Part shown: positions 38,360-53,167 of the stretch, piece by piece
How positions within the stretch are numbered: position 1 is the first letter of the stretch
How the letters are laid out: each line of letters opens with the position of its first letter
Assembly (NCBI RefSeq): GCF_012927085.1
Contig: NZ_JABBFX010000001.1
Location: 62,001-126,000 of the forward strand
Direction: 5' to 3'
From: Ramlibacter agri
Lineage (GTDB): Bacteria > Pseudomonadota > Gammaproteobacteria > Burkholderiales > Burkholderiaceae_C
DNA: 64,000 nucleotides
Notes under the pieces: generated by a model
Told to the model about the DNA's origin: nothing
The model's input: only the letters and a program-made list of their open reading frames with translations
Databases searched by the model: none
Made by a program: the position numbers and the translations under genes

Positions 38360-39820
38360 TTAACCGGGCTTCGCTGCCGCGTTCCTTCCTGCTCTGCGCC
38401 CCGACACGAACGCCCAGGCGAGATGATGGCCGTGCCCTTTCAGCAGCAAGCCGCCCTGCCCGGTCGAACCCGCTGCATACAGGCCGGGAATCGGCTTGTC
38501 ATTCGCGTCCAGCACGCGATGCTGCAGGTCCACCATCAGCCCGCCCTCGGCATGCACGAACACCGAGCGCACCGGCCCCAGCACCACATAAGGCCCCTCG
38601 CCCAGCGGCGGCACGTCGCCATCGCGCAGGCTGCGCGCCAGCGCCGCGACGTCCATCCCCAGCCGGCCGGCCAGCGCCGGCAGGCTCACCTCGCACACGG
38701 TCACGTCTGGCCGGTTGCGCAGGTAGTCGGGCACGTACGCATAGGCCACGCCCGGTGCGGTGGAAACGAAGTTCGGCCAGGCGGAGAAGCGAGCCGCCAG
38801 CTTCGCATCCAGCACGATCCAGGCTTGTCCACCCGGCTGCATGGGCACGCGATACGCCGGGCGGTCGCGTTCGTCGCAGAAGCGCTCCCCGCGCGCATTG
38901 ACCAGCCGCGCCCCCGCGTCGAACAAGGCGGGCGAAGGCGCCAGCGCCGTCGTCACGAACTGCATCACGAAAGGCCGCAGGATCGCGGCCGGCAGGAACT
39001 CGATGGCCCAGGCCATGCCGCTCGCGAGCCAGCGCCAGGGCGGCAGGCGCCGCAGCAGGGTCTCGCGCTGCGGCGGGATGAAGCGCAGCTCCGGCCCCAG
39101 CGCCAGGTCGCCGTTGACGATGCGCGCGCCCAGCGCCTCGGCCAGCTGCTGGCCGTCGCCGGTGGCCGTGGCGTTGACTCCGCCCACCTGCGCTTCGACC
39201 TCGCCCATGAAGCGCGCCTTCAGCTCCGGGCTGCTGGTGAAGTCGCCGGCGGCGAGCACCACGGCGCGGCGCGCCCGCAGTTCCTCGGCATCACCGGCAT
39301 TGCGCATCAGGACGCCGGTGACGCGTCCCTCCTCCTGCAGCAGCCGCACCACGCGCGCATCGCAGCGGATCGCCACGCCTTCGGCCCGCGCGCGCCGCTC
39401 CAGGTGGTAGATGAAGGCCCGCGAATTGGGCAGCACGTTGTGCATGCGCGGCTGGCGGTGCGGCGGCTCGGGCATCGGCCCCATGAAGCGCACGCCGGAC
39501 TCCAGCAGCCACTGGAAAGTGTCGGGGATGCCTTCGCACAGCACGCGTCGCAGCGCCGGGTTGTCGCGCGGATCGAGCTCACCGTTGAAGCCGGGCATGT
39601 CGGCCCAGTGCTCCGCCGGCGAATCGACGATGCCCTTGCGGCGCTGGTGCGGTGTCTGCGTGGACGTGATGGAACCGATGGACCAGGACGTCGAGCCACC
39701 CAGGCGCGGGTTCTTCTCCAGCAGCAGCACGGTGGCGCCGGCCGCGCGCGCCTCGATGGCAGCGGCCAGCCCGGCGCCGCCACCGCCGACAACGATGACG
39801 TCCCAGGCCGTGCCGCTCAA
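38360..39820 (-). CDS. FAD-dependent oxidoreductase, ketosteroid-dehydrogenase/fumarate-reductase type
   Basis: The 486-residue flavoprotein starts with the FAD motif VIVVGGGGAGLAAAIEARAA and EKNPRLGGSTSWSIGSI, and ends GLYAAGSTGQGGLLLKGHGH, typical of the KstD/fumarate-reductase group. No ATG gives a sensible N terminus. A TTG at 39820 overlaps the stop of the upstream SDR gene (TTGA), which explains the start by translational coupling. It is the last gene of the LIV-transporter operon. It probably dehydrogenates or reduces a C-C double bond of the pathway substrate; which one is unknown. Confidence 0.86.
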   Translation of the reverse strand: MSGTAWDVIVVGGGGAGLAAAIEARAAGATVLLLEKNPRLGGSTSWSIGSITSTQTPHQRRKGIVDSPAEHWADMPGFNGELDPRDNPALRRVLCEGIPDTFQWLLESGVRFMGPMPEPPHRQPRMHNVLPNSRAFIYHLERRARAEGVAIRCDARVVRLLQEEGRVTGVLMRNAGDAEELRARRAVVLAAGDFTSSPELKARFMGEVEAQVGGVNATATGDGQQLAEALGARIVNGDLALGPELRFIPPQRETLLRRLPPWRWLASGMAWAIEFLPAAILRPFVMQFVTTALAPSPALFDAGARLVNARGERFCDERDRPAYRVPMQPGGQAWIVLDAKLAARFSAWPNFVSTAPGVAYAYVPDYLRNRPDVTVCEVSLPALAGRLGMDVAALARSLRDGDVPPLGEGPYVVLGPVRSVFVHAEGGLMVDLQHRVLDANDKPIPGLYAAGSTGQGGLLLKGHGHHLAWAFVSGRRAGRNAAAKPG

Positions 39821-40530
39821 ACCATGCCGCCGTTCGGTTGCACTACCTGGCCATGCACCCAGGACGCCGCGTCGGACGCGAGGAAGCCCACCACCTGCGC
39901 CACCTCCTCCGGCGTGCCGATCCGGTTGAAGGGACTCATGGCGGCCGAGCGCGCCTTGGCCTCGTCGGTCTTGCCGGCGCGGAACAGGTCGGTGTCCACC
40001 GGGCCGGGCGCCACGCAATTCACGCGCACCTTGCGCGCCGCCAGCTCCTTCGCCATCGAGCGGGCCATGCCTTCCACGGCGGCCTTGCTCGCGGTGTACG
40101 GACCGCCACCTGGCACCGCATGCCGCACCATCGAGGTGGTGAGCGCGACGATGCTGCCGCCATCGGCCACCTCGCGCGCCGCCGCCGACAGCACGTTGAA
40201 GGCGCCGACGATGTTGGTCTCCACCAGCTGGCGGAAGTTGTCCGGGTCGAACTGCGCCATCGGCGCCGGTGGCACGTTGATGCCCGCGTTGGCCACTACG
40301 CAATGCGGTGCGCCGCCGAGGTCGCGCTTCACCGCGGCGAACACCTCGGCCACCCGCGCGGCATCACGGATGTCGGCCTGGTAGCCGCGCGTGCCCGCCG
40401 GGCCGTCCGCCGTGGAGACGAAGGTGTAGGCGACGGCGTAGCCATCCGCCACCAGGCGGCGCACGCAGGCCGCACCGATGCCGCGGGTGCCGCCGAAGAC
40501 GAGGGCGATCTTCTTGTCCATGTCGTTCAT
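39817..40530 (-). CDS. SDR-family NAD(P)-dependent oxidoreductase
   Basis: The 237-residue cytoplasmic enzyme has GGTRGIG near residue 14, NAGIN in the middle and an intact YTASK active site (GGGPYTASKAAVEGM). The C-terminal SWVHGQVVQPNGG is the usual SDR end. Unlike the other SDR at 31.3 kb its catalytic Tyr is present. Both ends overlap its neighbours by 4 bp: ATGA with the thiamine-diphosphate enzyme and TTGA with the flavoprotein. This shows a continuous translational unit. Substrate unknown; a hydroxy/keto intermediate of the same pathway is likely. Confidence 0.9.
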   Translation of the reverse strand: MNDMDKKIALVFGGTRGIGAACVRRLVADGYAVAYTFVSTADGPAGTRGYQADIRDAARVAEVFAAVKRDLGGAPHCVVANAGINVPPAPMAQFDPDNFRQLVETNIVGAFNVLSAAAREVADGGSIVALTTSMVRHAVPGGGPYTASKAAVEGMARSMAKELAARKVRVNCVAPGPVDTDLFRAGKTDEAKARSAAMSPFNRIGTPEEVAQVVGFLASDAASWVHGQVVQPNGGMV

Positions 40531-42305
40531 GCCTTGAAGGGTTTGCCGTAGGCCGGCTCTTTGTAGGGGATGGGTGGCAGCTGCCAGGTGCCGGTCGAAG
40601 GCGGACGCACGTCGGCGTCCACGTGCACGTCGATCACGCAGGGCCGCTTGTTCTTCAAGGCCTGCTGCACGGCCGCGCCCAGGTCCTGCGGGCGCTTCAC
40701 CGTCATGCCGTCGGCGCCGCAGGCGCGGGCCCAGGCCGCGAAGTCCGGGTTGTAGGGCTCGCCGGTGGCACCGTGATAGAAGGCCGTGCCGATCTCGCGG
40801 CCGTCGAACAAGCCGTACTGCAGGTCGCGGATGGCGCCCCAGGCGAAGTTGTTCCAGACGATCCAGACGACCGGCAGGTTGTATTCGACCGCCGTGCAAA
40901 GCACGTAAGGCGCCATCGTGAAGCCGCCATCGCCGACCACGGCCACGCAGGGCCGGCCGGGCGCGGCAAGCTGCGCGCCCAGCACGCCGCAGACGCCGAA
41001 GCCCATGGAGGAATAGCCCCAGCTGTTCAACATGCTCTGCGGCCTGCGCGCTTGCCAGAACTGCATGAACCAGTTGTGGTGCACACCCGAGTCCAGCGAC
41101 AGGATCACGTCCTCGGGCAGCAGCTTCTGCAAGGTGCCGACCACGAACTCCGGCCGCAGCGGGCTGGTGGAATCCTCGAAGTGCGGCCGCACGAAGGCTT
41201 CCCACTCGGCTTGCCAGCCGCGCACCTGGTCCAGCCAGGGCGCGTAGCGCTTCGCTTCGATCTCGGGCCGCGCTGCCGATGCGTTCAGCAGTTGCCGCGT
41301 GAACACCTTGACGTCGGCGATCACGCCCAGGTCTGGCGCGTAGTTGCGCCCCAGCTCCTGCGGGTCGATGTCCACGTGCACCAGCTTCGTCTGCGGGAAG
41401 TTCCACGAATAGCCCGCGTGCCAGCTCGATGCGGAGCGGTCGTCGAAGCGCGTGCCCAGGGTCAGCACCAGGTCGCTGCGGCGTCCCGCCTCGTTGGCGG
41501 GATAGGCGCCGTTGCGGCCGATGAAGCCCAGCGCCAGCGCGTGGTCGCCGCGAATGCAGCCCATGCCGTTGGGCGAGGTGATCACGGGGATTTGCAGGCG
41601 ATCGGCCAGCTCCGTGATCTCGGGCCCGGCTTCGGACAGCGTGGCGCCATGGCCGATGAAGATGACCGGCTTGCGCGCGGCCGCCAATAGATCCAATGCG
41701 GCGGCGATGTCGGCCTCGCTGGCGCCGGGCCGGTGCCGGCCATGCACGTGCGCGCGCGGCGGCAGTTCGACGTCCGCCTCCTCCTGGTATACGTTGTAGG
41801 GGATGTCCAGGTTCACCGGCCCGGGCCGGCCGGTGACCATGGTGTCCATCGCCTGGCGCAGGGCCAGCGGCAGCATGTCGACGCGCGTCGGCTGGAAGGC
41901 GCGCTTGGTCACCGGTCGCATCACCTGCGCGAAGTCCGCCTGGTTGTGCTTGTACAGCTCCTGGAAGGGCGCGCGGTTGTGCTGCGAGGTCGGCACGTTG
42001 GACGTGATCGCCAGGAAGGCCGAGGAGTCCGATAGCGCCGTGATCGCCGCCATCACCAGATTGGCCGAGCCCGGCCCGGTGGACGTGAGCGTCGCCACCG
42101 GCTTGTGCTTGACGCGGAAGTAGGCGTCGGCCATGTGGCCGGCGCACTGCTCGTGCCGCGGCGAGATGAGCTTGATGCGGTCGCGCCGCTCGTACAGCGC
42201 GTCGAGGATGCCGACGTTGCCATGCCCGCAGATGCCGAAGATGTACGGAACCTCCTCCTGCACCAGGTAGTCGGCGATCAGCTCGCCGCCCTTCATCTTG
42301 GCCAT
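40527..42305 (-). CDS. Thiamine-diphosphate-dependent enzyme, acetolactate-synthase-like
   Basis: The 592-residue protein has the three domains of the ThDP decarboxylase/carboligase family. The cofactor-activating Glu52 is in SPRHEQCAGHMADAY, and the Mg-ThDP motif is VGDGGFTMAP near 455 followed by WNNFAWGAI. The GHGNVGILDALYER start is not that of biosynthetic acetolactate synthase. It may decarboxylate a 2-oxo acid or condense an aldehyde with one; the next enzyme is an aldehyde dehydrogenase, which supports aldehyde formation. ATG 42305 follows AGGGAGAAGG. Glyoxylate carboligase or sulfoacetaldehyde acetyltransferase are less likely alternatives. Confidence 0.87.
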   Translation of the reverse strand: MAKMKGGELIADYLVQEEVPYIFGICGHGNVGILDALYERRDRIKLISPRHEQCAGHMADAYFRVKHKPVATLTSTGPGSANLVMAAITALSDSSAFLAITSNVPTSQHNRAPFQELYKHNQADFAQVMRPVTKRAFQPTRVDMLPLALRQAMDTMVTGRPGPVNLDIPYNVYQEEADVELPPRAHVHGRHRPGASEADIAAALDLLAAARKPVIFIGHGATLSEAGPEITELADRLQIPVITSPNGMGCIRGDHALALGFIGRNGAYPANEAGRRSDLVLTLGTRFDDRSASSWHAGYSWNFPQTKLVHVDIDPQELGRNYAPDLGVIADVKVFTRQLLNASAARPEIEAKRYAPWLDQVRGWQAEWEAFVRPHFEDSTSPLRPEFVVGTLQKLLPEDVILSLDSGVHHNWFMQFWQARRPQSMLNSWGYSSMGFGVCGVLGAQLAAPGRPCVAVVGDGGFTMAPYVLCTAVEYNLPVVWIVWNNFAWGAIRDLQYGLFDGREIGTAFYHGATGEPYNPDFAAWARACGADGMTVKRPQDLGAAVQQALKNKRPCVIDVHVDADVRPPSTGTWQLPPIPYKEPAYGKPFKA

Positions 42306-42316
42306 GTCCTTCTCCC

Positions 42317-43741
42317 TCAAGCCGTGATCGTGACCATGCGCTCTTCGGTCATCTCGCGCACGGCGTAGTGTGGACCTTCGCGGCCGAAGCCGCTGTCCTT
42401 GCTGCCGCCGTAGGGCATCATGTCCACGCGCGAGCTGGAAGTCTCGTTGATGTGCACGCCGCCGACCACCAGCTTGCGCGCCAGCCGGAAAGCGTCGTCC
42501 AACTTGTTCGTGAAGATGCCGGTGGCCAGGCCGTAAGGCGTGCCGTTGATGCGGGCGATGGCCTCGTCCACTTTCGCGAAGGGCTCGATGCAGACCACCG
42601 GCCCGAAGATCTCCTGGCAGGACACGTTCATCGCCGGCGAGATCCCGCTCAGCAAGGTCGGCGGAATGACGGCGCCACGCCGCTCACCGCCGGCCAGCCG
42701 GCGCGCACCGAGCGCCATCGCCTGCGCGATCCAGGCTTCGATGCGTTCGGCCGCGGCCTCGCTGATGACCGGCCCGACCACCGTGTCCGCCTTCGCGGGG
42801 TCGCCGAAAGGCAGCGCCCGCACCAGCGCGCCCAGCCGCTCCTCGACGCGCTCCCGCAGCGCCTGCTGCACCAGCAGGACCTGCACCGAGGTGCACACCT
42901 GGCCAGCCTTGCGGTAGCCCGCGTTCACCACCTTGGGCAGCGCCTTGTCCAGGTCCGCGTCCTCCGCCAGCACCGTGAAGGCGATCGAGCCCAGCTCCAT
43001 CTGCGTGCGGCGCAGGCCGGCGCGGGCATGGATGTCGCGGCCCACCTCGGTGCTGCCGGTGAAGGCGTAGAAGCGCACCAGCGGCTCGTCCAGCAGCCAC
43101 TGCACCACCTGCGCGCCGCCATGCACCACGGCCAGCAGGCCAGGGGGCAGGCCGGCCGCGAGCAGGCATTCGGCCATCAGGTTGGCCGTGCGCGGCGTGT
43201 GCGAGGACGGCTTCAGCACCACGGCATTGCCGGCCGCGAGCGCCGGCGCCACCTTGTGGGCGACGGTGTTCAGCGGCGCATTGAAGGGCGTGATGGCGCA
43301 CACCACGCCCAGCGGCACGCGGATGGTGAAACCGAAACGGCCTTCCTGCTGCGGCGCGCCGGCCAGCGGGATGACGTCGCCGGCGAGCCGCCGCGCCTCT
43401 TCGGCGGACAGCTGGAAGGTCTGCACCGTGCGCTTCAGTTCGCCCTGCGCATCCGACTGCGTGAAGCCGGCCTCGCGCTGCATGGCGGCGACGATCTCGC
43501 CCGCGCGCTGCTCGATCTGCGCCGCCGCGCGATCGAGGATCGCGCCGCGTTCGAAGGGACTCAGCACCGACGATTCGAACGCAGCATGGGCATGCTGCAC
43601 GGCCTGCCGCACCTGTTCGCGGCCCGCGCGGTGCAGCTTCCAGCAGGGCGTGAGCCGGTACTTGTCGAGGACTTCGCTCGTCTCTGCGCCGGCGACCCAT
43701 TCGCCGCCGACCAGGACCCGGCACTCCGGCAAGGCTTCCAT
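42317..43741 (-). CDS. NAD(P)-dependent aldehyde dehydrogenase
   Basis: The 474-residue enzyme has all ALDH catalytic elements: Asn in ITPFNAPLN, Lys in LKPSSHTP, Glu in QMELGSIAF and the nucleophile Cys283 in KAGQVCTSVQ. GSTEVG marks the cofactor site. It oxidises an aldehyde to an acid. Its ATG overlaps the cupin stop by one base (TGATG). Together with the thiamine-diphosphate enzyme it suggests a 2-oxo acid to aldehyde to acid sequence; this is inference. Substrate unknown. Confidence 0.92.
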   Translation of the reverse strand: MEALPECRVLVGGEWVAGAETSEVLDKYRLTPCWKLHRAGREQVRQAVQHAHAAFESSVLSPFERGAILDRAAAQIEQRAGEIVAAMQREAGFTQSDAQGELKRTVQTFQLSAEEARRLAGDVIPLAGAPQQEGRFGFTIRVPLGVVCAITPFNAPLNTVAHKVAPALAAGNAVVLKPSSHTPRTANLMAECLLAAGLPPGLLAVVHGGAQVVQWLLDEPLVRFYAFTGSTEVGRDIHARAGLRRTQMELGSIAFTVLAEDADLDKALPKVVNAGYRKAGQVCTSVQVLLVQQALRERVEERLGALVRALPFGDPAKADTVVGPVISEAAAERIEAWIAQAMALGARRLAGGERRGAVIPPTLLSGISPAMNVSCQEIFGPVVCIEPFAKVDEAIARINGTPYGLATGIFTNKLDDAFRLARKLVVGGVHINETSSSRVDMMPYGGSKDSGFGREGPHYAVREMTEERMVTITA

Positions 43742-44133
43742 CACAGCGCCTCCTCGTGGTCCTCGGCCGGCGTCGTCACCACCAGGAACACAAGGCCGTT
43801 CGTTCCGGTGTTGGTGAAGCTGTGGCGGATGCCAGGCGGCACGTAGACGTAGTCGTGCGGCCGCATCAGGTGACGCTCGTCGTCCAGCGTCAGCACGCCC
43901 TCGCCTTCCAGCACGTAATAGATCTGTTCCTGCACCGCGTGCACGTGTTCGCCCACGTAGGCGGCCGGCGCGTAGCGCGAGATGCGGAAGTCGACGCGGC
44001 GCGAGCCGGCGTTCTCCGGGCCCACCAGCGCCTTGGAAAGCGCGCCGCCGAAGTGGCCGGGGTATTCCTTCCACGGCAGCAGCGCCATCTTCTCCACGAA
44101 GGCGGTGTCGCGCCGGGTCTTGCGGACGGTCAT
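43741..44133 (-). CDS. Small cupin-domain protein
   Basis: The 130-residue single-domain cupin carries both metal motifs: GEHVHAVQEQIYYVLEGEG (His-x-His-x3-Glu pattern) and PPGIRHSFTN. Such proteins bind one Mn, Fe or Zn ion and act as isomerases, dioxygenases or sensors. The first 40 residues are basic and mention KEYPGHFGGALSKAL. ATG 44133 has GAAGGAAAG upstream. It lies between the LIV transporter and the aldehyde dehydrogenase, so an enzymatic role in the pathway is likely, but no reaction can be assigned. Confidence 0.85.
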   Translation of the reverse strand: MTVRKTRRDTAFVEKMALLPWKEYPGHFGGALSKALVGPENAGSRRVDFRISRYAPAAYVGEHVHAVQEQIYYVLEGEGVLTLDDERHLMRPHDYVYVPPGIRHSFTNTGTNGLVFLVVTTPAEDHEEAL

Positions 44134-44143
44134 GGTCTTTCCT

Positions 44144-46717
44144 TCAGAGCCAGAGGATCTTCTTGCGGTACTCGAGGTCGGCCAGCAGCGGCTCGGCCGG
44201 GCCGGTGTGGAACACGGCACCGCGCTCCAGCGCATAGACGCGGTCGGCCAGCGCCAGCACCAGGTCGAGGTTGTGTTCGACGATGACGATGGAGACCTCG
44301 CGCCGCAGCTGGTCGAACACGGTGAACAGCTCCTGCACGACGGCCGGCGCGAGGCCTTCGAAGGGCTCGTCCAGCAGCAGCAGCTTGACGTTGCCGGACA
44401 GCGCGCGGGCCACGGCCACCATCTGCTGCTCGCCGCCGGAGAGGTAGTCGGCGGCGACGTGCATGCGCTCCTTCAGCCGCGGGAAGTACGCGAGGATCTT
44501 CTCCTCGCTCCAGGCCACGCCGTGGCTGCCGTCGGTGGCCCGCGCCAGCCGGCCCAGCGCCAGGTTCTCGGCGACCGTCATGCCGGCGAACAGGCCGCGC
44601 CCCTGCGGCACGTAGCCGATTCCCAGCCGCGCGATCTTCGGCGCCGGCAGGCCGGCGATGGCGTGGCCTTCGAACTCGATGCTGCCTGAGGCCGGCAGCA
44701 GCAGGCCGCACAGAGACTTCAGCAGGGTCGACTTGCCCGCGCCATTGCGCCCCAGCAGCGCGACGATCTCGCCTTCGCGCACTTCCAGGCTGGCGTCGTT
44801 GAGGATATGGCTCTTGCCGTAAAAGGCGTTGACGCCTTCGAACTTCAGCAGCAACGGCCGCTCGACACCCGCGGCCACCGCCGTGCGCCCGGTGACTGCC
44901 GGCGTGCCGGTGCCGGTGTAGACCTCCTGCACGCGCCGGTCCGTGCGCACCGCCTCCGGCGTTCCGGTCATCAGCACCTGGCCCTGGTTCATCACCGTGA
45001 CCTGCTGCGAGAAGTCCAGCACACGGTCGATGTCGTGCTCCACGATCAGCACCGGGATGTGGTGCGCGATGGTCTTCACCAGCCGGCACACGCGCTCGCG
45101 CTCCGCCGCGGCCAGGCCGGCCAGCGGCTCGTCCAGCAGCAGCACCTGCGGCTTGGAGCCGAGCGCGATGCCCAGGTCCACCAGCCGTTGGCCGCCATAG
45201 GACAGGTCTCCACCCAAGGTGTCCTCGATGCCTTCCAGGCCCAGGAAGCGCAGCAGCTCGCGCGTCTCCTCCTGCACCTGCGCGTAGCTGCGAGCGTCGC
45301 GCCACAGGTTGAAGCGGCCCGGGTGGCGCGCCTGCAGCGACAGCCGCAGGTTCTCCTCGATGCTGAGGCCCTTGAACAGGTTGGTGATCTGGAAGGAGCG
45401 CGCCAGGCCATGGTGGCAGATGCGCTCCGGCGCCATTCCGTCCACGGGCTGGCCATGCAGCTTCACGCTGCCGGCATCCGGCCCGAACATGCCGGAGATG
45501 AGGTGGAAGGCCGTGGTCTTGCCGGCGCCGTTGGGCCCGATCAGCGCATGCACCTGGCCGGCTTGCACCGTGAGGCTCACGCCATCGACGGCGCGGATGC
45601 CGCCGAAGTTCTTGCGGATGCCGTCCACTTCCAGCACCGCACCCACGCGCGGCGCCGGGCACAGGAAGGAAGGCAGCGGCAGTCCTTCGTGGATGCGCCG
45701 CCGGCTCATGGCCGCGGACTCTTCCGGCGGCGGCTTCAGTCGGCGCCGGACCTGCTCCCAGATGCCGGCCAGGCCCGAGGGCGAGAACAGCACGAAGCCG
45801 ACGAAGGTGAGGCCGAACCAGAACAGCCAGTTGTCCGTGTGGATGGAAAACAGCTCGCGGAACAGCAGGTAGAACAGCACGCCCAGCGCCGGCCCCAGGA
45901 AGCTGCGCATGCCGCCGATCACCACCATGGCCAGCATCTCGCCGGAGAAGCCGACGGTGGTCGACTCCGCCGCGGCGAGCCGGTGCGCGAACACCAGCAG
46001 CCCGCCCGCCACGCCGGTCCAGGTCATCGCGATGACGAAGGCCAGCAGCTTGTAGCGGCGCACCGCATAGCCCTGGAAGGCGGCGCGCTGCTCGTTCTCG
46101 CGGATCGCTACCAGCACGTGGCCGAAGGGCGAGCGCACCACGCGCAGCAAGGCGTACAGCGCGCCCAGCGCCACCAGCGCGGTGAAGGCATAGTAGGCGC
46201 GGTCGTCGTTCAAGTCGATCGGCCCGAGCCGCCCGCGCTCGAGGCCGCCCATGCCACCTTCGCCACCGGTCACCGCGGTCCAGCGGAAAGCCACCGCATA
46301 GGTCAGCGCACAAAGCGCCAGCGTCATCAGCGAGAAATAGACGCCGCGCCGGCGCAGGACGAGGAAACCCACCACCAGCGACAGCAAGGCCATGAAGACG
46401 GCGGTGCACAGCAACGGCATCCACACCTGCCCCGGGAACCAGTGCTTCTGCGCCAGCGCCGCCGCATAGCCGCCGACACCGAACCAGGCGGCATGGCCGA
46501 AGGAGACGAGCCCGGTGTAGCCCACCAGCAGGTTCAGGGCCATCGTCGCCATGCACAAGACGACCACGACGATGGCGTTGTCCACGGTCAGGCCGATGGC
46601 CCGCAGCAGGAAGGGCAGCAGCACCAGGCCGGCCGCGCCCAGCCACAGCGGCCGCCATGCGTGGTCCGCGGCGTGCGCCGGTCCCGCGGGCGCGGCGATG
46701 CTATTCGAAACGCTCAA
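44144..46717 (-). CDS. Triple-fused branched-chain-type ABC transporter: LivM permease + LivG + LivF ATPases
   Basis: One 857-residue chain contains three usually separate subunits. Residues 1-330 are a LivM permease with about nine helices (LVGYTGLVSFGHAAWFGVGG near 64-83). A linker (331-358) leads to LivG: Walker A GPNGAGKT 394-401, signature LSYGGQ 505-510, Walker B LLLDE 526-530. LivF fills 620-857: Walker A GRNGAGKST 656-664, signature LSGGEQ 759-764, Walker B LLLDE 780-784. The frame is open throughout with no stop or frameshift. It overlaps livH by 17 bp. LivM-LivG fusions are known; inclusion of LivF as well is unusual to my knowledge. Confidence 0.94.
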   Translation of the reverse strand: MSVSNSIAAPAGPAHAADHAWRPLWLGAAGLVLLPFLLRAIGLTVDNAIVVVVLCMATMALNLLVGYTGLVSFGHAAWFGVGGYAAALAQKHWFPGQVWMPLLCTAVFMALLSLVVGFLVLRRRGVYFSLMTLALCALTYAVAFRWTAVTGGEGGMGGLERGRLGPIDLNDDRAYYAFTALVALGALYALLRVVRSPFGHVLVAIRENEQRAAFQGYAVRRYKLLAFVIAMTWTGVAGGLLVFAHRLAAAESTTVGFSGEMLAMVVIGGMRSFLGPALGVLFYLLFRELFSIHTDNWLFWFGLTFVGFVLFSPSGLAGIWEQVRRRLKPPPEESAAMSRRRIHEGLPLPSFLCPAPRVGAVLEVDGIRKNFGGIRAVDGVSLTVQAGQVHALIGPNGAGKTTAFHLISGMFGPDAGSVKLHGQPVDGMAPERICHHGLARSFQITNLFKGLSIEENLRLSLQARHPGRFNLWRDARSYAQVQEETRELLRFLGLEGIEDTLGGDLSYGGQRLVDLGIALGSKPQVLLLDEPLAGLAAAERERVCRLVKTIAHHIPVLIVEHDIDRVLDFSQQVTVMNQGQVLMTGTPEAVRTDRRVQEVYTGTGTPAVTGRTAVAAGVERPLLLKFEGVNAFYGKSHILNDASLEVREGEIVALLGRNGAGKSTLLKSLCGLLLPASGSIEFEGHAIAGLPAPKIARLGIGYVPQGRGLFAGMTVAENLALGRLARATDGSHGVAWSEEKILAYFPRLKERMHVAADYLSGGEQQMVAVARALSGNVKLLLLDEPFEGLAPAVVQELFTVFDQLRREVSIVIVEHNLDLVLALADRVYALERGAVFHTGPAEPLLADLEYRKKILWL

Positions 46718-47576
46718 TCCGCTCTCCCAACAGGCCGCGCGGGCGCAGCAGCAGCACCAGGAACATCAGCACGTACATCGAGGCTTCGGCGGCCGCCGGC
46801 AGGAAGAAGATCGTCGCCCCGCGCACCACGCCCACCAGCACCGCGGCCAGCACCACGCCCCAGAAGCTGCCCAGGCCACCGATCACGACCACGACGAACG
46901 CAGCGGTCATCACCTCGGTGCCCATGGCCGGATGCACGATGGTGATCGGCCCGAACAGCGCGCCGGCCAGCGCCGCGCTCGCCACGCCCAGCACCACGAT
47001 CGCCGTCATGTAGGGCTGCAGGCGGATGCCCAGCACCGCCACCATGTCGGGACGCTGCACGCCGGCGCGCACGACGCGGCCGAAGGCCGTCTTGTTCAAC
47101 AGCAGCCAGACGCCCGCCAGCAGCACCAGCACCAGCGCGAGCAGCAGCAGGCGGTAGCGCGAGAACATGAAGTCGCCGACCAGCACGTTGCCCTTGAAGC
47201 CGGGCGGCATGCTGGAAGGCAGCGGCGCCGCGCCCCACAGCATGCGGATCGCCTGCTCGGCCAGCAGCGCCAGCCCGAAGGTGACCAGCAGGCTGAGGAT
47301 GGGGTCGGCCGTGTAGAAGCGGCGCAGCAGGAAGCGCTCGAACAGGATGCCCAGCACGCCGACGGCCACCGGCGACAACGCCACACCCGCGCCCCAGCCG
47401 AGCCGGCGCCCGATCTCCAGCGAGAGATAGGCGCCCAGCGCGTAGAAGGCGCCGTGCGCGAGGTTGACGACGCCCCCGACGCTGAAGATCAGCGAGAGTC
47501 CGAGCGCAAGCAGCAGGTAGTAGCCGCCGAGAACCAGCCCGTTGACCAGCTGCTCGAGGAGGAAGGTGAGTTCCAT
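46701..47576 (-). CDS. livH: Branched-chain-type ABC transporter permease LivH
   Basis: The 291-residue inner-membrane permease starts MELTFLLEQLVNGLVLGGYY and has the LivH pattern VNLAHGAFYALGAYLSLEIG near residue 37, with about eight helices. It pairs with the LivM domain of the fused protein to form the channel. The next gene begins inside its last codons (17-bp overlap). It begins one base after the livK stop. The substrate is likely a carboxylate or amino-acid-like compound used by the downstream enzymes, as this transporter class is widely recruited to catabolic operons. Confidence 0.93.
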   Translation of the reverse strand: MELTFLLEQLVNGLVLGGYYLLLALGLSLIFSVGGVVNLAHGAFYALGAYLSLEIGRRLGWGAGVALSPVAVGVLGILFERFLLRRFYTADPILSLLVTFGLALLAEQAIRMLWGAAPLPSSMPPGFKGNVLVGDFMFSRYRLLLLALVLVLLAGVWLLLNKTAFGRVVRAGVQRPDMVAVLGIRLQPYMTAIVVLGVASAALAGALFGPITIVHPAMGTEVMTAAFVVVVIGGLGSFWGVVLAAVLVGVVRGATIFFLPAAAEASMYVLMFLVLLLRPRGLLGERIERFE

Positions 47577-47577
47577 C

Positions 47578-48819
47578 TCACATCTTGCAGGCGTTCTCCG
47601 ACTTGGGCGGCGCCAGCAGTTCGAGCGGCTGGTTGGGCGCGGGCAGCGCGTCGCCGAACTTCAGGAAGTCCTTGTCGTTCTTCGCCTGGCCCTTGGCCTT
47701 GACGGTGAAGGGATAGGCTTCCTGCATCAGCTGGTGGTCCCAGGAGCGGAAGTACGCCTTGCGCGCTTTCAGGATGTCGAACTGCGCCTCCGACTCGAAG
47801 TAGGCGATGAGCTTGTCGCTGTCGGTGGACTTGGCCTCGTTCATGGCCTGCGCCAGCAGCTTGAGCGAGATGTACTCGATCCACGCGTGGTTCTCAGGGA
47901 TGCGGCCGTACTTCTTCGTGAAGTCGGCCACGAACTTCTTCGAGCCGGGCGTATTCAGGTCGTGGTGCCACACCGTAGGCCAGATGCCGCCCAGGTTGCC
48001 CTCGCCGGCCGCCCAGGCGTCGGCGGTGTTCAGGTTGAAGCCCACCACCGGGTAAGGCAGGCCGAACTCCGCGTACTGCTTGACGAAGTTGGTGACCTGG
48101 TTGCCGCCCAGGTTGGTGGAGATGACGTCCGGCTTGGCCTGGCGGATCTTCAGCATGTAGGGGCTGAAGTCGGTCAGGTCCGTCGGCACCAGCTCGTTGG
48201 CGATGACGGTGGCGCCGTTGGCGGCGAAGAACTTGTTGGCCTTGGCCGAGAGATCCTGGCCGAACAGGTAGTCGGAGGTGATGGCGAAGATCTTCTTGCC
48301 TTGCACCATGTGGTCGCGCACCAGCGCCTGGCCCACGGTGTTGACCATCACGGTCACCGGGATGTCGACGTGGAAGGTGTAGCGGTTGCAGTCCTTGCCG
48401 CGCAAGGCGTCGGAGCGCGCGCCGATGCTCAGGAACAGCTTGTGGTTGCGCGCCGCCACCTGCGAGATGGTGAGCGCGGAGGCGGAGTTGATCTCGCCCA
48501 TGAGCACGGCGACGTTGTCGCGCTCGATCATGCGCTGCGCCTTGGTCGCGGCCACCTGCGGGTTCACCGAGTCCTCGCTGATCACCTCGAGCTGGCGGCC
48601 CATGACGCCGCCGGAGGCATTGATCTCCTCGGCGGCCATCTTGATGCCCTGCTGCGCGTACTCACCGAGCGCCCCGAGGAAGCCGGTGAGCGGCGTGAGG
48701 TGGCCGATGCGGATCTTCTCGCCCTGGGCGCGCAGCCCCGGCACAACCAGCAGCGCCCCCAGTGCGGCGCCGGCCTGCAGGGCGTGGCGGCGGCCAGCTT
48801 CATGCGATCGCTTCGTCAT
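47578..48819 (-). CDS. livK: ABC transporter substrate-binding protein, LivK/amide-urea type
   Basis: The 413-residue periplasmic protein has an N-terminal signal with RR (EAGRRHALQAGAALGALLVV), which may use the Tat or Sec path, then IRIGHLTPLTGFLGALGEYA, the start of the type I periplasmic-binding fold. Other family segments are AAEEINASGGVMGRQLEVI and DYLFGQDLS. ATG 48819 follows CAGGAGA. It is the first gene of the operon and faces the divergent LysR gene. The pocket residues cannot assign a ligand; aromatic and short-chain acids are common for this group. Confidence 0.9.
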   Translation of the reverse strand: MTKRSHEAGRRHALQAGAALGALLVVPGLRAQGEKIRIGHLTPLTGFLGALGEYAQQGIKMAAEEINASGGVMGRQLEVISEDSVNPQVAATKAQRMIERDNVAVLMGEINSASALTISQVAARNHKLFLSIGARSDALRGKDCNRYTFHVDIPVTVMVNTVGQALVRDHMVQGKKIFAITSDYLFGQDLSAKANKFFAANGATVIANELVPTDLTDFSPYMLKIRQAKPDVISTNLGGNQVTNFVKQYAEFGLPYPVVGFNLNTADAWAAGEGNLGGIWPTVWHHDLNTPGSKKFVADFTKKYGRIPENHAWIEYISLKLLAQAMNEAKSTDSDKLIAYFESEAQFDILKARKAYFRSWDHQLMQEAYPFTVKAKGQAKNDKDFLKFGDALPAPNQPLELLAPPKSENACKM

Positions 48820-48885
48820 CGTCGTCTCCTGATGTTCTGTAGTCCGAAGAAGCGCGACGGATGCTAGGCCAGCGCAGTGCATCGG

Positions 48886-48931: not shown

Positions 48932-49903
48932 ATGGACCTGCGCCAGCTTCGCTATTTCGTGACCATCGTCGAGAGCGGCAGCCTCGCCAAGGCTTCGCGC
49001 CAGCTGTTCATCGCGCAGCCGGCGCTGAGCCAGCAGATCGCCAAGCTGGAGGCGGAGGTGGGCAAGCCGCTGCTGGTGCGCACCGCGCGCGGCGTGACGC
49101 CCACCGAAAACGGCACCGCGCTGCACCACCACGCGCGCTTCATGCTGCGCCAGCTGGACCAGGCCCTGTCCATCGCGCGCCAGGAGCCGGGCACGGTGCA
49201 CGGCATGGTGTCGGTGGGGCTGGCGGCGACGACGGTCTGCGCGGTCGGCGTGCCGCTGGTGCAGACGATCCGCGAGCGCTATCCGGGCGTGGTGCTCAAT
49301 GTCGTCGAAGGCATGAGCGGCCACCTGACGCAGATGATGCAGCTGGGCCAGCTGGACCTGAGCATCCTGTTCTCGCGGGACGCCATCGCGGACCTGCCGT
49401 CGGAGCCGCTGCTCGCCGAGGAACTGGTGGTGATCGTGCCGCGCCACAGCACGCTGGTGCCGCCGCGGCGCACCAGGCTGACGGTGGCCGAGGCCGCGGA
49501 GCTGCCGCTGATCCTGCCCACCGGCATCCATGGCCTGCGCCGGCGCATCACCACCGAATTCGAGCGGCGCAACCTCGCGATGCGCGTGGTGGCGGAGATC
49601 GACTCGCTGTCGCTGCTGATGGCCTGCGTGCGGCGCGGCATGGGCGCGACGATCAAGCCGATGTCGGCGGCGTTGGCGGGCGACACCTTGAGCCCGGAAT
49701 GGCGCTGCCTGTCCTTCTCGGATGCGCATCTGACGCGTTCCAGCTATCTCTATTCGGTGGTGCCGGAACGGCTGTCGCCCGCGGCGGCCGCCGTGCGCAC
49801 CGAACTGCGGGAGACGGTGCGCATGCTGGCGCAGACGGGGCGCTGGCCGGGGGTGGAATTGCTGGCGCCGGCCGCGGCACGCGTGGAGAAGGAGGCGGCG
49901 TAG
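48932..49903 (+). CDS. LysR-family transcriptional regulator (LIV operon side)
   Basis: The 323-residue protein has the LysR winged helix (MDLRQLRYFVTIVESGSLAK, then PALSQQIAKLEAEVGKPLL) and a periplasmic-binding-like effector domain. It is divergent from livK, the classic layout for a regulator of the neighbouring operon; dyad sequences lie in the 112-bp gap. It resembles the other LysR in the window (similar TARGVTPTE/SAKGVTPTE and effector region), suggesting a shared ancestor. The effector is probably the transported substrate or an intermediate. Confidence 0.93.
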   Translation: MDLRQLRYFVTIVESGSLAKASRQLFIAQPALSQQIAKLEAEVGKPLLVRTARGVTPTENGTALHHHARFMLRQLDQALSIARQEPGTVHGMVSVGLAATTVCAVGVPLVQTIRERYPGVVLNVVEGMSGHLTQMMQLGQLDLSILFSRDAIADLPSEPLLAEELVVIVPRHSTLVPPRRTRLTVAEAAELPLILPTGIHGLRRRITTEFERRNLAMRVVAEIDSLSLLMACVRRGMGATIKPMSAALAGDTLSPEWRCLSFSDAHLTRSSYLYSVVPERLSPAAAAVRTELRETVRMLAQTGRWPGVELLAPAAARVEKEAA

Positions 49904-50582: not shown

Positions 50583-52037
50583 TCAGCGGGCGCACTCGCC
50601 GCTCATGGCGCGGCCGATGACGCTGGGTGCGTTCAGCAGGCCGTCCGCCTTGGGGCGCTGCTCCGGCTGGTGCAGGCAATCGTCGCGGCCAGCGCCTTCC
50701 ACGCCCTGCTCCAGCGCGTCTTTGGGCTTGCCGCGTCGCAGCTGCTCGTTGGCCATGTCGGCCAGGCTGCGCCGTGGCGCCAGCCGGTAAGGTCCGGGAG
50801 CCACCGGCCCGGAGGGCGGCGGCAGGATCAGCGGGGCAGGCGGCAGCGCCGTCGGCGGTGCCACGCCGGGCGCGCCCCAGCCGGGGGCCGGAGCGGCGGG
50901 CACCGGGGCACCGCGCTGCTGGCCACCGGGGGCGCCGGGTCCGCCCGGGCCAGGTGCGGCTTGCGGTCCCGCCGGGCCAGGCCCTGCAGGACCCGCGGCT
51001 GGAGCGGCCGGTGCGGGCGGCGCAGCGGCTGGCGCAGCGGGTGCGGGAACAGGCGCGGCTGGCGCAGGCACGGGCGCCGGGGCAGGCGGGGCTGGCACGG
51101 GTGCGGGGGCTGGAGCAGGCACCGGCGCGGGCGCCGGCGAAGGCGCTGGTACGGGCGCAGGCACTGGCTCTGGGGCGGGTACCGGAGCGGGCGCGGGCGC
51201 TGGGGCCGGTGCCGGTGCGGGGACGGGCGCTGGTGCAGGAACCGGAGCGGGCGCGGGAACGGGTGCCGGCGCAGGGACTGGCGCAGGCGCGGGAGCGGGC
51301 ACGGGAACCGGCGCTGGTGCGGGCGCTGGAGCGGGCGCAGGCACTGGCACTGGCGCCGGCACAGGAGCCGGGACGGGCGCGGGCGCAGGAAGCGGCGCGG
51401 GAGCCGGTGCAGGGACTGGCACAGGCTCCGGCGGCGGAGCAGGCACCGGCTCCGGCGGAGGCGGCACGGGAATCGGCAACGGCGGTGGTGCCGGAACCGG
51501 CAAGGGCGGAACCGGCTGTGGCTCCGGCGGCGGGGCCGGCGCCACCTGCGGGACCTCCGGCGCCGGCTCGGGCAGGTGCAACTGCGGCTCCAGCCGCAGC
51601 TCCGGCGCCGGCGCCGGCGCGGCAGCGGGCGCCTCCACCGGCGGAGCCGGCGTCCGCTGGCGGACGCGCTGCCGTTGCCGGGCGGGTTTCAGCGTGTCCG
51701 GCAGCTGGCTCGTCACCTGCATGGGCACGCTGGACTGCGGATTGTTGGAAAACAGGTCGGCCGATTCGCCGCTGCGCCCACGCGGCCCGGGCAAGGTGAT
51801 CGCCCGGCTGGGCGGCACCGGGGCGGGGCTGCTGGAACTGCTGGACGACGCAGGCGCCGGGCTGCTGCTGCTCGAAGGCCGGAACGCCTGGGTCACCACG
51901 TAGCGCACCGCCTGCTGCACCGGCGTGTACTGCAGCAGGAACCAGATCAGCGCGACGTGCAGCACCCCCGTGGCGGCCAGCGCCGTCGGCGAAGGGCGCT
52001 GCCGGGGCAGCGACGCGTGGGTGGGCCGTTGCAGCAT
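50583..52037 (-). CDS. Single-pass membrane protein with very long Pro/Ala/Val repeat
   Basis: This 484-residue protein has one N-terminal helix ([20 protein letters not shown], about residues 18-37), a Ser-rich stretch (55-70), then about 290 residues of PAPAPVP-type repeats (about 128-420) and a 60-residue soluble end with two Cys ([20 protein letters not shown]). The layout copies TonB (helix, Pro-rich spacer, C-terminal domain), but the end does not look like the TonB C-terminal fold. The spacer is several times longer than in TonB. A plausible role is reaching across the periplasm; function unknown. It is divergent from mnmA with a 32-bp gap. Confidence 0.75.
50778..51656. repeat. Low-complexity GC-rich repeat region encoding the Pro/Ala/Val spacer
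   Basis: About 880 bp are made of imperfect tandem 6-bp units on the theme GGCGCX-GGAGCX (plus strand), encoding Pro-Ala and Pro-Val dipeptides. Such tracts are prone to replication slippage, so length may vary between strains. Confidence 0.8.
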
Positions 52038-52056
52038 GGGGAATTGGTGGCGCTGG

Positions 52057-52062
52057 GATAAT
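52057..52062 (+). promoter_or_regulatory. Candidate -10 box of mnmA (GATAAT)
   Basis: GATAAT ends 7 nt before the mnmA ATG, and there is no ribosome binding site, which suggests a leaderless mRNA. No good -35 is visible. Confidence 0.4.
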
Positions 52063-52069
52063 CGCACAC

Positions 52070-53167
52070 ATGGGTCGCAAGCCACGCGTAGTTGTCGGTC
52101 TGAGCGGGGGCGTGGACTCCGCGGTCAGCGCGTACCTGCTCAAGCAGCAGGGGTACGAAGTCGTCGCCATCTTCATGAAGAACTGGGAGGACGACGACGA
52201 TGACGAGTACTGCTCGTCCAACGTCGATTTCGTCGACGCCGCCGCGGTGGCCGACGTGATCGGCATCGAGATCGAGCACGTCAACTTCGCCGCCGACTAC
52301 AAGGACCGCGTCTTCGCCGAGTTCCTGCGCGAATACCAGGCCGGCCGCACGCCCAACCCGGACGTGCTGTGCAACGCCGAGATCAAGTTCAAGGCCTTCC
52401 TGGACCACGCCATGCGGCTGGGCGCCGAGAAGATCGCGACCGGCCACTACGCCCGCGTGCGCGAACGCGAGGGCCGCTTCGAACTGCTGAAGGGCCTGGA
52501 CCCGGCCAAGGACCAGAGCTACTTCCTGCACCGCCTCGACCAGGCCCAGCTGTCGAAGACGCTGTTCCCGGTGGGCGAGCTGCGCAAGACCGAGGTGCGC
52601 CGGCTGGCCGAGGAGATCGGCCTGCCCAACGCGAAGAAGAAGGATTCCACCGGCATCTGCTTCATCGGCGAGCGGCCCTTCCGCGAGTTCCTGAACCGCT
52701 ACATCCAGAAGGAACCCGGCCCGATGAAGGACGCCAACGGCCGCACCATAGCCAAGCACCAGGGCCTGTCCTTCTACACGCTGGGCCAGCGCCAGGGCCT
52801 GGGCATCGGCGGCCTCAAGGAGAAAGGCGCGCAGCGGGGCGGCGGCGAACACGCGCCGTGGTTCGTCGCGCGCAAGGACATGGAGAAGAACACGCTGTGG
52901 GTCGTGCAAGGCCACGACCACCCGTGGCTGCTCTCGCCCTCGCTGGCCGCCGACGACGCCAGCTGGACCGCCGGCACGCCACCCGCGCCCGGCGCCTATG
53001 CCGCCAAGACGCGCTACCGCCAGGCCGACGCGGCGTGCACGCTGCTGGACCCGACGCCGCAGGGCTTCCGCCTGGACTTCGCCGAGCAGCAATGGGCGGT
53101 GACGCCCGGGCAGTCGGCCGTCCTGTACGACGGCGAGGTATGCCTGGGCGGGGGCGTGATTACCTGA
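52070..53167 (+). CDS. mnmA: tRNA 2-thiouridylase MnmA
   Basis: MnmA thiolates U34 of Lys, Glu and Gln tRNAs using sulfur passed by the Tus relay. The 365-residue enzyme has the PP-loop [12 protein letters not shown] at 11-22, catalytic Cys101 ([11 protein letters not shown]) and the second Cys197 ([11 protein letters not shown]). The D-x-D patch and [20 protein letters not shown] fit the family. The start is leaderless-like. The stop overlaps the esterase gene tail to tail by 8 bp. NudJ, its usual upstream neighbour, is 20.8 kb to the left. Confidence 0.96.

Follow-up and report, generated by a model that had tools for sequence, protein, structure and literature searches.

The window, a stretch of 64,000 nucleotides from Ramlibacter agri, carries on its minus strand an operon in which genes for a periplasmic binding protein and a LivH-type permease are followed by a single gene, livMGF, encoding a second permease joined to two ATPases, and then by genes for several catabolic enzymes. 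The genes of the region are the following:

38360..39847, minus strand: FAD-dependent oxidoreductase, PF00890 (Pfam), start approximate
39817..40551, minus strand: short-chain dehydrogenase (SDR), named by relatives in annotated records, start approximate
40527..42305, minus strand: thiamine-diphosphate (TPP) enzyme of the acetolactate-synthase superfamily (profile and PDB search)
42317..43744, minus strand: aldehyde dehydrogenase (ALDH; profile matches)
43741..44235, minus strand: cupin-domain open frame (Pfam and flank comparison); the gene probably starts later, near the end of livMGF
44144..46717, minus strand: livMGF, fused permease and two ATPases, 857 aa, TTG start at 46717 and stop at 44144-44146
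46701..47576, minus strand: livH-type permease, 291 aa, PF02653 (Pfam)
47578..48882, minus strand: periplasmic binding protein, up to 434 aa, PF13458 (Pfam)
48932..49903, plus strand: divergent LysR-type regulator, named by relatives in annotated records

Read from 46717 to 44144, livMGF gives 857 codons from the TTG without an internal stop. A purine-rich GGGAGAG lies just 5' of the start, which overlaps the 3' end of livH by 17 nt. A sequence-only reading had placed LivM, LivG and LivF in one frame at 44144..46717, with LivH and the binding protein encoded separately. The stop-free frame and the Pfam domains bear out the fusion and its coordinates, to which the strand, absent from that reading, is added as minus; both separate genes lie directly upstream on the same strand. 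Pfam assigns to the 857-aa protein one PF02653 (BPD_transp_2) domain at residues 48-296, two PF00005 (ABC_tran) stretches and the HAAT-type family C-terminal domain PF12399, the last scoring 25.5 bits, which is precisely the cut-off. All three subunits thus occupy one uninterrupted frame over the whole length of the predicted polypeptide. PF02653 together with PF00005 and this PF12399 match, and the second permease and type I periplasmic binding protein directly upstream in the same operon, are the marks of a HAAT-type importer. The parts of the fused gene, all on the minus strand, are these:

45830..46576, minus strand: LivM-type permease domain, residues 48-296 (PF02653; Pfam)
45638..45751, minus strand: linker 1, residues 323-360, with conserved A335-A336-M337 and a conserved LP..L (P349, L352), from comparison of relatives
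44912..45637, minus strand: LivG-type ATPase domain, residues 361-602 (profile matches)
45515..45538, minus strand: Walker A of ATPase 1, GPNGAGKT, residues 394-401 (motif)
45188..45205, minus strand: ABC signature of ATPase 1, LSYGGQ, residues 505-510 (motif)
45035..45037, minus strand: H-loop His561 of ATPase 1, in IVEHD, residues 558-562 (motif and alignment)
44852..44911, minus strand: linker 2, residues 603-622, from comparison of relatives
44147..44851, minus strand: LivF-type ATPase domain, residues 623-857 (profile matches)
44729..44752, minus strand: Walker A of ATPase 2, GRNGAGKS, residues 656-663 (motif)
44426..44443, minus strand: ABC signature of ATPase 2, LSGGEQ, residues 759-764 (motif)
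44273..44275, minus strand: H-loop His815 of ATPase 2, in IVEHN, residues 812-816 (motif and alignment)

Walker B is LLLDEP in both ATPase halves, and the motif positions confirm the earlier statement that each half retains an intact Walker A, signature (LSYGGQ, LSGGEQ) and Walker B. The first Walker A had been located correctly at 394-401; the second, given as 656-664, ends at 663, since GRNGAGKS has eight residues. The window has about 70% G+C, and because long frames come cheaply at this composition, an open frame alone is little proof. Other frames overlap the same stretch, one of 842 aa on the minus strand (44130-46658) and one of 712 aa on the plus strand (44807-46945). The livMGF frame is more than chance, as it carries in-frame domain matches and has full-length relatives. 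Elsewhere in the window, a long Pro-Ala/Val repeat occurs in a 500-aa open frame at 50583-52085 on the minus strand, with tandem repeats at 50994-51477.

Relatives, linkers and spread of the fusion

In a database search with the window protein, all 120 matches listed were fused, 820-860 aa long and 75-100% identical to the query (one of them, P0002, being the window's own protein), and all 120 had both Walker A motifs, both signatures and both H-loops. The count of relatives with all three domains that the sequence-only reading had proposed as a check is therefore complete among the matches listed. For a second query, the fused protein of Rhizobium sullae, the 120 matches listed (including the query) were again all fused, at 829-865 aa, and 112 of them fit the LivG signature pattern. 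The scored candidates that matched, 7975 of 8000 for the window query and 6523 of 8000 for the R. sullae query, are not counts of fusions, since the length limits admit shorter proteins. Source databases mostly name these proteins as permease/ATP-binding fusions or ATP-binding proteins, and the NCBI name of many fused relatives is “branched-chain amino acid ABC transporter ATP-binding protein/permease”.

Surveys of whole genomes gave a fused gene that is widespread and patchy. In the taxonomic family, 11 of 200 genomes gave complete M-G-F matches free of stops, each confirmed to be a single frame, and one further match was cut by a contig end; these figures are lower bounds, four candidates being scored per genome. 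In the genus, six of 59 genomes passed an E-value of 1e-120, three of them within the clade of the window (100, 81 and 54% identity) and three at 37-39%. At the level of the phylum, with three candidates per genome, 19 of 299 genomes passed 1e-110; all 19 matches were stop-free over the three domains, seven at 57% identity or more, and one began at residue 60, at a contig end. Plasmids carry the fusion as well: in all 12 regions examined of 40 listed it was a single CDS, about 2.5 kb long, that followed the genes for the binding protein and LivH in that order. These regions span alpha- and betaproteobacteria, from Rhizobium (two), Skermanella (two), Salipiger, Microvirga and Ponticoccus to Paracoccus, Methylobacterium, Paraburkholderia, Roseomonas and a Rhodobacteraceae strain; in the Roseomonas plasmid a transposase separates the binding protein and LivH genes. 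In the genome of the window, the 20 other stretches read each contain a Liv-type operon, none of them with an M-G-F fusion.

Linker sequences appear to be under constraint. L141, L002 and L003 are the nearest fused relatives with DNA sequences read; compared with them, dN/dS was 0.37, 0.25 and 0.30 for linker 1 and 0.22, 0.30 and 0.48 for linker 2, in the range of the domains, and judged on these three relatives purifying selection reaches the linkers. Against the 12 more distant of the 15 relatives compared the linker values scatter: four exceed 1, the highest being 1.63, and two are saturated. The Ala-Ala-Met of linker 1 is invariant in the 16 clade-A genes read as DNA and occurs in 118 of the 120 proteins listed for the window branch.

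Two other explanations of the gene were weighed against these data. Three adjacent genes might have been merged by a sequencing or assembly error that removed their stop codons, which is conceivable given that M-G-F is the usual order of the separate genes in the loci compared and that the genome is a 13-contig assembly. No stop nevertheless interrupts the frame in any of the 120 matches listed, in independent sequences that are 80-86% identical, in plasmid copies or in other genomes from across the phylum, and the linkers are alignable and of nearly constant length in 16 genes; such an artefact is so improbable as to be negligible. The lost stop codons that the sequence-only reading had named as a possible refutation are accordingly ruled out by the relatives; separate genes, its other such case, are common in the wider family, but each close relative listed is fused. 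Met337, for its part, could be an internal start yielding an additional, free LivG-LivF protein. It is present in all 16 clade-A genes and in 120 of 120 listed proteins, many genes have purine-rich stretches resembling ribosome sites upstream of it (GGAAGAG, 9 nt upstream, in the window), and mean anti-Shine-Dalgarno pairing there is -4.8 kcal/mol, against -3.1 at other Met codons of the same genes. This pairing strength comes from glutamate codons, however: random synonymous codons average -6.5, and none of the 16 genes falls in the strongest tenth of its synonymous versions. The two Ala residues before the Met are kept as amino acids while their codons vary, which points to a constraint on the protein, and the AAM motif is missing from the second branch (0/120 proteins listed for the R. 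sullae query). An internal start is thus very unlikely, and the gene is best read as encoding one fused chain.

The M-G-F fusion is old, common and already in databases, and no discovery in itself; its presentation as a step beyond the known LivM-LivG fusions was overstated. No description of an M-G-F fusion was found in open-access titles and the beginnings of abstracts, with PMC2448597, on Ralstonia metallidurans transporters, available in part; the accessible part of PMC2821768 gives HAA systems as separate subunits. Because NCBI annotation already names the architecture, the window gene is at most an undescribed example of it, and knowing that the architecture is widespread and annotated guards against over-reading the fusion.

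Fusion types in the family and the LivF H-loop

For 136 operons, fusions were typed by shared frames: 84 had separate M, G and F genes, 21 were M-G-F and 20 M-G, followed by H-M (five), H-M with G-F (three), H-M-G (two) and G-F (one). Six of the 84 separate-gene operons were without LivH and one without LivM in the stretch examined. These numbers are not frequencies, the sample being drawn from searches with the window protein, the window's own genome, plasmids chosen as fused and a general pattern scan of contigs. That scan used two very general peptide patterns and took 80 of 591 loci as a sample of the wider family and a background for the tree; three of the 80 gave no row, and none was M-G-F. 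Fusion evidently recurs in this importer family, as M-G, H-M, H-M-G, G-F and M-G-F all occur. Among the rarer types, LivH, LivM and LivG share one frame in a Dechloromonas MAG (L120, 836 aa) and in an uncultured betaproteobacterium (L130, 951 aa), LivF being separate in both. In three loci (L021, L023 and L026) the four domains are divided between a LivH-LivM frame and a LivG-LivF frame, which could make up an importer core of two genes; several of the frames reach the locus edges.

A quick tree, built from the LivG and LivF domains joined together, divides the M-G-F operons into two clades. Clade I (13 rows, support 98) unites the window group with the R. sullae group, and clade II (support 99) has eight rows, L007, L010, L012, L013, L015, L018, L019 and L060. 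Strongly supported branches ask for two changes to M-G-F; a single origin, set against this tree, was not rejected (p-AU 0.242). The M-G fusion needs seven changes on the same tree, at least four of them required by branches with strong support. Frames of 1045-1168 aa in L007, L010, L012, L013 and L015 had suggested a quadruple LivH-M-G-F fusion. This was rejected, as Pfam found a single PF02653 stretch in each and the extra N-terminus, inspected by eye, is not permease-like and corresponds to livH DNA in another frame.

The clades differ at the H-loop of LivF. In the alignment all 13 operons of clade I have His at this position and all 8 of clade II have Gln; in the 115 others it is Gln in 104, Lys in 10 and His in one (L110). 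The LivG H-loop is His in all 136. Both halves have His in all 240 proteins listed for two clade I branches, and the other LivF copies of the window's own genome read with Gln or Lys in 20 of 20 cases. The solved LivF-type ATPase 1ji0 has Gln (VEQN), unlike the LivF half of the window. Clade I is one lineage, so its many His members count as one event at most, and fusion does not bring His with it, as clade II shows. A quick rooted tree, from which the 10 longest-branched operons were left out, nests clade I among LivF lineages with Gln or Lys; placement of clade I at the base of LivF was not rejected (+9 log units, p-AU 0.732). The His of clade I may have been either gained or retained.

Clade II has its own peculiarity, a degenerate LivG signature, L[PA]HVD[RK], in which Val replaces the signature Gly in 8 of 8 operons, along with a LivF H-loop VDQM; both alter the same composite ATP site. 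Twelve further fused genes, at 33-37% identity, were put in clade II by identity and motif only. The L[PA]HVD signature occurs in 11 of them, with LPHGEK in L160, and VDQM also in 11, L143 giving no match to the pattern.

According to the part of PMC7756269 that was available, an ATP site of an ABC transporter is shared between the halves: one contributes Walker A, Walker B and the H-loop, the other the signature. Because the sites are composite in this way, the LivF site gives most of the family an asymmetric look that clade I lacks. Clade I might tentatively be regarded as catalytically unlike its HAAT-type family, with possible ATP hydrolysis at both sites where the family would have one complete and one altered site. 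The same partial source describes ABCC1 with Gln at the H-loop position as keeping wild-type-like transport. Open-access literature contained, for the words used, no paper on LivF and the H-loop, related titles being mostly on exporters. Should the tentative reading hold, clade I would be a symmetric version, provided by nature, of an importer family that is asymmetric. The split at the LivF H-loop makes the question of one or two ATP sites testable through single point changes.

Substrate, assembly and known systems

The unit of binding protein, LivH and fused protein is constant in the loci read, and the enzymes beside it vary. In the window LysR regulators accompany the enzymes. Of 24 flanks compared by blastp, all contained a match to LivH, 23 one to the binding protein and six one to the TPP enzyme, some flanks being short or ended by a contig edge. 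The same run occurs in L165, from the same taxonomic family, where binding protein, LivH, fused gene, cupin (83%), ALDH (68%), TPP enzyme (88%) and SDR (75%) follow in the order of the window, with the FAD gene (68%) about 3 kb further and the second LysR placed at the opposite side. Relatives of the cupin (57%), ALDH (60%), TPP (63%) and SDR (65%) genes are present in Rhizobium sp. Q54 (L051), those of TPP and cupin in L166-L168, and that of SDR also in L168. In Methylobacterium nodulans (L057), relatives of the TPP enzyme (76%), SDR (74%), ALDH (68%) and cupin (61%) adjoin a fused transporter from the other branch of clade I, only 39% identical to that of the window. One TPP/ALDH/SDR/cupin pathway thus appears to be paired with two versions of the fused importer, which favours an organic substrate of this pathway. 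Other relatives adjoin genes for 3-hydroxyacyl-CoA dehydrogenase/BKACE or shikimate dehydrogenase, and from this variation the importer family probably serves several substrates. The neighbouring TPP enzyme was also considered as a cyclohexane-1,2-dione hydrolase, an identity left unsupported by the PDB search (175 bits, against 280 for BbmA and 243 for acetolactate synthases); nothing useful on BbmA appeared among the literature matches listed.

The label “branched-chain amino acid” reflects homology only. A urea (Urt) or true branched-chain amino acid (Liv) importer, fused by chance, would agree with the best curated matches, UrtD, UrtE and UrtC, and the full chain lies above the cut-offs for UrtD (337.9 against 304.1 bits) and UrtE (328.8 against 285.8). 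Such totals sum two ATPase domains, however, and LptB was passed in the same way (298.2 against 240). Taken domain by domain the chain misses every cut-off, with 215.4 of 304.1 bits for UrtD, 216.7 of 285.8 for UrtE, 137.9 of 296.2 for UrtC, 187.2 of 362 for LivG and 190.4 of 441 for LivF. The separate proteins score no better, the binding protein reaching 124 of 492.75 bits for UrtA and 73.3 of 477 for Liv, and the LivH-type permease 163.5 of 250.3 for UrtB and 72 of 379 for LivH. The LivG, LivF, LivH and binding protein scores thus all fall short of the LivFGHM branched-chain amino acid equivalogs, and no UrtABCDE component is reached domain by domain. Urea transporter identity was rejected, and the leucine naming of the sequence-only reading finds no support in the curated models. 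The catabolic neighbours are also of another kind, and a Urt or Liv importer is unlikely. What the importer takes up is probably an organic acid or a carbonyl compound that the adjacent TPP/SDR/FAD/aldehyde-dehydrogenase pathway breaks down, and not leucine or urea. A trap for automatic naming of fused ATPases was encountered here, since the whole chain passes the NCBIfam models UrtD, UrtE and LptB and each domain alone fails.

From the observed frame, domains, motifs, operon order, conservation and spread, livMGF very probably encodes the fused LivM, LivG and LivF subunit of a binding-protein-dependent branched-chain/amide (HAAT-type) ABC importer that works with LivH, pairs its ATPases and takes up a substrate of the catabolic pathway. 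ATP-driven uptake is predicted, with the separate periplasmic protein delivering the substrate. The chain would most likely assemble with one separate LivH permease, and its two ATPase domains, from what is known of the family, would face each other head to tail as an ATP-binding pair. The LivH-M-G-F complex contains one copy of each subunit. The fixed 1:1:1 ratio that had been expected from the fusion is hence no gain, as the unfused complex already has it; assembly steps would be saved with the ratio unchanged. The fusion might bring about co-assembly and shield the system from paralogues by fixing which two ATPases pair with which permease, useful amid many parallel systems of the same family. 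A single chain with the permease and both ATPases is also a convenient purification handle in a family whose subunits are usually separate.

Known systems resemble the window protein to different degrees. The NCBIfam UrtABCDE models are its best-scoring curated matches, with no single component at its cut-off. Domains homologous to those of the window are found in the E. coli type LivKHMGF/LivJ system and in the solved ATPases 1ji0 (LivF-type) and 1g6h (LivG-type), in all of which the subunits are separate. In Rhodopseudomonas palustris, RPA1792, near the aromatic-acid binding protein RPA1789, is a permease-ATPase fusion in a similar importer operon, in which, unlike in the window, the second ATPase and second permease are separate genes, as far as the accessible part of PMC3223731 goes; that RPA1792 is a LivM-LivG fusion is our own reading. 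Clade II shares the M-G-F architecture and differs in its place on the quick tree, a separation that is not firm, in its LivG signature L[PA]HVD[RK] and in the Gln of its LivF H-loop. Of the same build are the NCBI fusions of about 840 aa from Skermanella mucosa (WP_202684609.1), Salipiger (WP_066111908.1) and Rhizobium sullae (WP_027513123.1), each one CDS for a permease and two ATPases, with the gene order of binding protein and LivH as in the window, which differ from it only in sequence (about 40-62% identity) and in the neighbouring enzymes.
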